Below are positions 18,185 through 18,640 of a stretch of 33,179 nucleotides of DNA, one piece after another (the stretch's first letter is position 1; every line of letters starts with the position of its first letter). Below the pieces are notes generated by a model. That model had not been told where the DNA came from. It ran no database searches and saw only the letters and a program-made list of their open reading frames with translations. This DNA comes from Syntrophomonadaceae bacterium (GTDB taxonomy: Bacteria > Bacillota > Syntrophomonadia > Syntrophomonadales > Syntrophomonadaceae): the NCBI GenBank assembly GCA_012729715.1, contig JAAYCQ010000164.1, forward strand, positions 1 through 33,179. The letters run 5' to 3'. Both the position numbers and the translations under genes were made by a program.

Positions 18185-18367
18185 ATGGCACGGAACAAAG
18201 GCCTTATGTCCGAACAACTCAAGTATGAAATCGCCCGGGAACTTGGAGTAGATCAAATTGTAGCTTCTGAGGGCTGGGGCGGTGTAAGCTCGAGAGACTG
18301 TGGTAGAGTTGTAGCCAAAGCAATTGAAATAGCGGAAAGAAGCATTTCCCAGCAGAATACGAAATAA
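18185..18367 (+). CDS. Alpha/beta-type small acid-soluble spore protein
   Basis: 60 residues: MARNKGLMSEQLKYEIARE, then GVSSRDCGRVV and a closing EIAERS helix. The segment YEIA is the usual cleavage site of the germination protease, and the two conserved DNA-binding segments (KYEIARELG and the glycine-rich SSRDCG region) are present. SASPs coat spore DNA and protect it from UV and heat. The GW between the two segments departs from the Bacillus consensus but occurs in clostridial types. GAGGGGGG precedes ATG 18185. In the 166-base gap upstream, CATCGTA (18120-18126) looks like a sigma-G -10 box, but no matching -35 box was found. A terminator follows immediately. Confidence 0.9.
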   Translation: MARNKGLMSEQLKYEIARELGVDQIVASEGWGGVSSRDCGRVVAKAIEIAERSISQQNTK

Positions 18368-18378
18368 CTCGCATCATT

Positions 18379-18410
18379 CGGGGGTTAAAAACCCCCGGAT
18401 AATTTTTATC
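18379..18410 (+). terminator. Terminator-like hairpin after the SASP gene
   Basis: CGGGGGTT (18379-18386) pairs with AACCCCCG (18390-18397) over an AAA loop, followed after a few bases by ATTTTTAT. The next gene starts 28 bases after the stem, so this may limit rather than stop transcription into it. Confidence 0.7.
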
Positions 18411-18424
18411 CAGGAGGTGTTTTG

Positions 18425-18622
18425 ATGATAAATGGTCAAACTCCGTTGGAGGACGTACTGGAAATACCGGGAGCCATCCGAGTTTTCGAAAAGTATGGAA
18501 TCAAATGCCTGGGTTGAATGGGTTTAAGGTTCGAGACTATCGAGCAGGGTGCTCGTGCTCACAACGTTGACCTGGAAAAACTTTTAAATGACCTGCGTCA
18601 ATTACAAGGCAATAAGGGGTAA
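18425..18622 (+). CDS. Probable selenoprotein: DUF1858-like redox protein with in-frame TGA (CxxU)
   Basis: 65 codons from ATG 18425 to TAA 18620-18622, with TGA at codon 31 (18515-18517). Upstream it reads LEDVLEIPGAIRVFEKYG-IKCLG, and downstream MGLRFETIEQGARAHNVDLEKLL. Both halves match the DUF1858 / hybrid-cluster-associated redox disulfide family in one frame, with TGA exactly where the second cysteine of CLGC belongs. This gives CLGU if read as selenocysteine. The Shine-Dalgarno AGGAGGTG (18412-18419) is perfect with five-base spacing. A six-pair hairpin with a GGG loop at 18541-18555 lies at a suitable distance for a bacterial SECIS. The family is thought to be a small thiol-redox domain. 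The alternative is a cysteine-to-stop mutation; intact downstream coding argues against an old pseudogene. No sel genes are in the window. Confidence 0.75.
18541..18555 (+). promoter_or_regulatory. Candidate bacterial SECIS hairpin
   Basis: CGAGCA (18541-18546) pairs with TGCTCG (18550-18555) around the loop GGG. The loop starts 29 bases after the TGA codon and begins with G. This agrees with the general bacterial SECIS pattern as I know it (apical loop roughly 16-37 bases after UGA, G among its first bases). A smaller competing stem TCGA/TCGA lies just upstream. Confidence 0.55.
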
Positions 18623-18640
18623 AACCCCTTATTCCTCTTT
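18611..18640 (+). terminator. Terminator of the TGA-containing gene
   Basis: AATAAGGGG (18611-18619) pairs perfectly with CCCCTTATT (18625-18633); the stop codon lies in the five-base loop. The tail CCTCTTTA is only moderately T-rich. That the stem overlaps this stop codon supports the TAA at 18620 as the real end of the gene. Confidence 0.65.

Follow-up and report, generated by a model that had tools for sequence, protein, structure and literature searches.

Background: described DUF1858 proteins

DUF1858 proteins (PF08984) with a CxxU motif are already a catalogued selenoprotein family, exemplified by WP_012065717.1, and CxxU is the only arrangement listed for this domain in the accessible parts of the two catalogues (PMC9312934, PMC13188914); DUF1858 is not named in the main text of PMC2398784 or PMC5029168. 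Two DUF1858 genes have been placed in denitrification contexts: bsl7085, a member of the NnrR regulon of Bradyrhizobium (PMC6710368), and the gene of Thermus DrpB (PMC6282519).

We studied a stretch of 33,179 nucleotides from a Syntrophomonadaceae bacterium (hereafter the window), in which a DUF1858 gene runs across an in-frame TGA codon. The protein read through this codon matched in sequence the solved TIGR03980 Cys proteins 2K5E (GSU1278; E 5e-10) and 2K53 (A3DK08; E 2e-5), both of which carry Cys where the window gene has TGA. A weak match was obtained with the N-terminal domain of YtfE/RIC/ScdA (PF04405, ScdA_N; 23.4 bits, below the cut-off of 32.5), which has a similar fold. In this case, however, only the N-terminal part of the larger proteins was matched: the window protein has no hemerythrin-like di-iron domain and is a stand-alone protein of 65 residues with a CxxU motif.

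The gene and its reading frame

The gene extends from 18425 to 18622 on the forward strand and comprises 65 codons plus TAA (18620-18622), an assignment based on profile scores across the TGA and on 16 intact relatives (see below). A Shine-Dalgarno sequence, AGGAGG (18412-18417), precedes the ATG (18425) by 7 nt, and a terminator-like stem (18611-18633, forward strand) overlaps the TAA. The sole in-frame TGA of the frame (18515-18517) lies in a CxxC-type redox motif, CLGU (18506-18517, forward strand), in which TGC at 18506-18508 encodes Cys28 and the TGA would encode Sec31. With the TGA translated as Sec, the protein scored 60.8 bits against the TIGR03980 profile (curated cut-off 44.95 bits) and 52.1 bits against that of PF08984 (cut-off 32.2 bits), in both cases over nearly the whole domain; a six-frame search of the organism's own genome also gave a DUF1858 match spanning the TGA.

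The first-pass annotation of this DNA had described a perfect Shine-Dalgarno sequence with a 65-codon frame, a TGA replacing the second Cys of a CLGC motif, family-like sequence beyond the TGA and a terminator stem over the stop codon. All these elements were recovered here, and the TGA column is occupied by Cys in the alignment with 2K5E and 2K53 as well as in the paralogues of group D (see below).

Conservation of the TGA codon in relatives

The comparison covered 63 genomes of the order, and a class-level search returned the same 63. The contig scan gave two close relatives, a Syntrophomonas MAG and a Syntrophomonadaceae MAG, which are the nearest named ones. The clade containing the window gene, designated A/B, was represented by 18 loci in these genomes: besides the window, there were 16 intact relatives and a single decayed copy. 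TGA was found at the same codon in 17 of 17 intact copies, distributed over three families of the class, and Cys in none of them. A gene caller taking TGA as a stop would trim the genes of this clade to about 30 codons.

The first-pass annotation had proposed looking for a TGA at the same site in other genomes, and had held that random stops or frameshifts in the second half of relatives' genes would speak against a selenoprotein; the TGA was present in the 16 intact relatives, whose copies were uninterrupted across it. Between the window gene and its nearest intact relative (L024), dN was 0.014 and dS 0.62 after the TGA (Ka/Ks ~0.02), versus 0.080 and 0.526 before it (Ka/Ks ~0.15). Judging by these substitutions, the segment 3' of the TGA is under strong purifying selection.

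A decayed second half was found among the relatives only in L039/L071 (G057:C271), whose start is decayed too: the ATG is lost, the Shine-Dalgarno sequence is weakened (AGGAAG), and the second half and the hairpin (see below) are replaced, with the upstream SASP gene and the terminator still in place. The gene can therefore be lost, and such a copy lends some colour to the view that the window gene is itself a decayed DUF1858 gene, in which the TGA, arisen by mutation or through a sequencing error, is a true stop and the product is either a fragment of 30 residues or absent. We consider this highly improbable, in view of the same TGA in 17 intact copies from three families, the low Ka/Ks downstream and the conserved hairpin.

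The SECIS-like hairpin

Downstream of the TGA lies the hairpin CGAGCA-GGG-TGCTCG (18541-18555, forward strand), with stem arms at 18541-18546 and 18550-18555 and the loop at 18547-18549. The loop is separated from the TGA by 29 nt, just as the first-pass annotation had reported. In the accessible part of PMC13188914, the rules for bacterial SECIS elements concern loop, stem, loop G, spacing and an energy limit of -7.5 kcal/mol. The hairpin fits these rules on loop, stem (6 bp), loop G (GGG) and spacing (29 nt); its energy was -10.0 kcal/mol with flanks (18531-18570), inside the limit, and -6.5 kcal/mol for the bare 15-mer, short of it. Five of the stem pairs had probabilities of 0.97-0.995, and the innermost had one of 0.65. 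Among synonymous recodings of the window gene an equally good hairpin appeared in 0.8%, and an MFE as low in 11% (P 0.11), i.e., the MFE is unexceptional.

The hairpin codons GAG-CAG-GGT-GCT were identical in 16 of the 17 intact A/B copies (the exception is L030), and the adjoining Glu and Thr codons varied among the 17. For the same residues, the group D paralogues, which have no TGA at the second Cys, used GAA/GAG, CAA/CAG, GGA/GGG/GGT and all four GCN codons, and the hairpin stem was found in none of them. The next stem pair was C-G in seven of the intact A/B copies and U-A in nine. The observed covariation score was reached by 0 of 500 column shuffles, which leave relatedness in place; in 312 of 500, at least as many pairs had changed on both sides as in the real alignment. 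The putative SECIS is a clean case of one written into a conserved protein motif (EQGAR/Q).

Selenocysteine machinery and probable decoding of the TGA

In the organism's own genome, selA (570 bits) adjoins selB (394 bits) on contig C177, and selD (382 bits) is of the Sec type, itself carrying an in-frame TGA close to its N-terminus. Across the order, 55 of the 63 genomes yielded a tRNA-Sec and 58 a selB. The search for the four sel genes that the first-pass annotation had suggested was thus positive for selA, selB and selD, but an intact selC was not found in this draft genome, where the gene is represented only by a fragment beside a likely assembly gap. Contig C177 is collinear with the selAB region of genome G055 as far as the contig reaches, and the collinearity is taken up again on C18 some 0.6 kb past the selC of G055. 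Because selC falls in the interval between the two, an intact copy most likely lies, as far as contig comparison can tell, in the assembly gap that separates C177 from C18; the alternative, that this species alone has lost selC, we do not favour.

The fragment (L148, C18:2054-2142) aligned with 89 nt from the 3' portion of the selC region in G055 at 84% identity and represents the 3' end of a tRNA gene that resembles selC and has the anticodon TCA. Two ORFs beside it look RloA/RloB-like, and the arrangement possibly represents a mobile island inserted at selC. The best RF01852 match in the genome (47.1 bits) was rejected as selC since ARAGORN identified it as tRNA-Ser(TGA).

Because the family match runs through the TGA, the codon is conserved in 17 copies, purifying selection acts beyond it, and the hairpin and selA, selB and selD are present, all of them computed results together with the frame, we infer Sec insertion: the TGA at 18515-18517 is very probably decoded as Sec in a 65-residue DUF1858 protein. 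SelB carrying Sec-tRNA, placed by the GGG-loop hairpin, would insert Sec at the UGA at 18515 rather than allow termination, and the product would be a selenoprotein that consists of one DUF1858 (TIGR03980) domain with the motif CxxU. That the TGA is read otherwise, through genome-wide reassignment to some amino acid or by simple read-through, would agree with the open and conserved frame past it but is scarcely credible, as TGA is the ordinary stop for 3 of 30 window genes and so is not simply reassigned, the aligned residue is Cys, and the gene has a SECIS-like hairpin and the genome Sec machinery.

Fold and probable function

The AlphaFold2 model of the window protein was a helical domain (pLDDT 85.6, pTM 0.74), with 2K5E as its best fold match (TM 0.81, Foldseek E 0.003); comparison with the N-terminal domain of YtfE (5FNY) gave a TM of ~0.7 and a Foldseek E of 0.85. 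The selenoprotein would thus be predicted to form a small helical domain resembling 2K5E and the N-terminal domain of YtfE/RIC, a protein of Fe-S repair. Cys28 and Sec31 probably alternate between the thiol/selenolate and the selenenylsulfide forms, and the product would be a fast small redox carrier or sensor serving a partner. Selenol/thiol redox chemistry is probable, and a selenol/thiol redox carrier or sensor appears the most likely role; that the partner acts in nitrosative or oxidative stress or in Fe-S repair can be suggested only tentatively.

A dedicated partnership with the hybrid cluster protein (Hcp) is brought to mind by the name of the TIGR03980 model, 'hybrid cluster protein-associated redox disulfide domain', and by the occurrence of hcp: the organism itself has it, as do 16 of the 18 genomes that carry the A/B clade. 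We regard it as unlikely: hcp occurs in 46 of the 63 genomes of the order, so this linkage is not discriminating, and the organism's hcp is on contig C48, whereas the selenoprotein gene is on C133.

The SASP gene upstream

An alpha/beta-type SASP gene (18185-18367, forward strand; PF00269, 31.2 bits) is the conserved upstream neighbour of the selenoprotein gene, and the scan of the window located a terminator-like stem between the two (18376-18400, forward strand). The SASP gene was directly upstream on the same strand at 18 of 18 A/B loci over three families. It was assigned by a sequence motif at 17 loci and by direct reading at L024; of the ten upstream ORFs compared with Pfam, eight were supported, L035 among them at a score just below the cut-off. 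Beyond the SASP gene, a divergent radical-SAM gene was present in the loci of family f1 and in some others. The terminator scan proper covered the window's own terminators only; in the relatives, spacers read by eye showed terminator-like inverted repeats between the SASP and DUF1858 genes at most A/B loci, followed in most loci of families f2 and f3, also by eye, by a TGnTATAAT motif. A promoter scan of the window region returned no more sites than expected.

This neighbourhood bears on the role in spores about which the first-pass annotation had asked. A redox protein linked to spores, expressed in the forespore together with the SASP gene ahead of it or acting during germination, would be consistent with the SASP gene at every locus of the clade, and in the window only ~45 nt lie between the genes, with no promoter-like site found there. 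The usual terminator between the genes and the TGnTATAAT after it in two of the three families argue against joint expression, and we hold the spore-linked role to be doubtful.

Paralogues and first-Cys TGA genes

Besides clade A/B, the order contains eleven group C loci with TGA at the second position as well; eight of them have a hairpin with the same core, a GGC loop and a distance of 26 nt, and it is missing from L050, L055 and L060. Group D is of the CxxC type, but TGA occupies the first Cys (UxxC, ULGC) in L046 (G014), L052 (G011) and L056 (G018), whose frames are intact. A clear SECIS was not found for these three genes (synonymous-recoding P 0.19-0.46), which are possible UxxC selenoproteins. 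In a 71-row tree, a 100/99 branch had all 28 rows with TGA at the second position on the same side. The three UxxC rows fell among the Cys rows; the tree has few columns and many weak forks.

One could imagine a Sec-only DUF1858 clade tied to one SASP gene for a spore-linked redox task, while a separate lineage independently recoded the first Cys (UxxC). Such a history is rather improbable; if true, selenium would have been placed at one end of the motif in the first lineage and at the other end in the second. With a constant SASP neighbour, and with Sec possible at two positions of a single small domain, the function becomes testable.

Other DUF1858 genes showed further variation. L031 and L050 contain the TGA without the first Cys (RFGU and YTGU, respectively), and Sec may act there without a partner Cys. 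Note that L055 (G051:C71) is a group C gene with TGA in a genome said to be 92% complete, in which selB and tRNA-Sec were not found; this may reflect a gap in the assembly, or Sec decoding may have been lost. The organism's own genome has just one further DUF1858 match (L002, G000:C44:4920-5093), which forms the N-terminal end of a protein of 401 residues lacking CxxC; a nearby gene resembles those for periplasmic metal-binding proteins. Plasmids gave only three DUF1858 matches, with 33-43% identity.

Comparison with the catalogued family

The first-pass annotation had called this gene a probable new selenoprotein. A Sec-decoded DUF1858 CxxU gene with a SECIS and with selA, selB and selD is well supported, but the word 'new' has to be withdrawn, the family being already in two catalogues (PMC9312934, PMC13188914). 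Going by the catalogue description, the listed DUF1858 CxxU family has the same domain and the same Sec position as the window gene, which is part of a large clade inside this known family. The class-wide clade, the SASP linkage and the SECIS are absent from the descriptions of the listed family in the accessible parts of PMC9312934 and PMC13188914, and a limited literature search found no description of the class-wide clade and its SASP linkage. What the present results contribute to this selenoprotein family, so far documented chiefly through catalogue entries, is a class-wide and well-supported clade: a selenium form common to a whole class of fermenting bacteria and always located behind a spore-protein gene.
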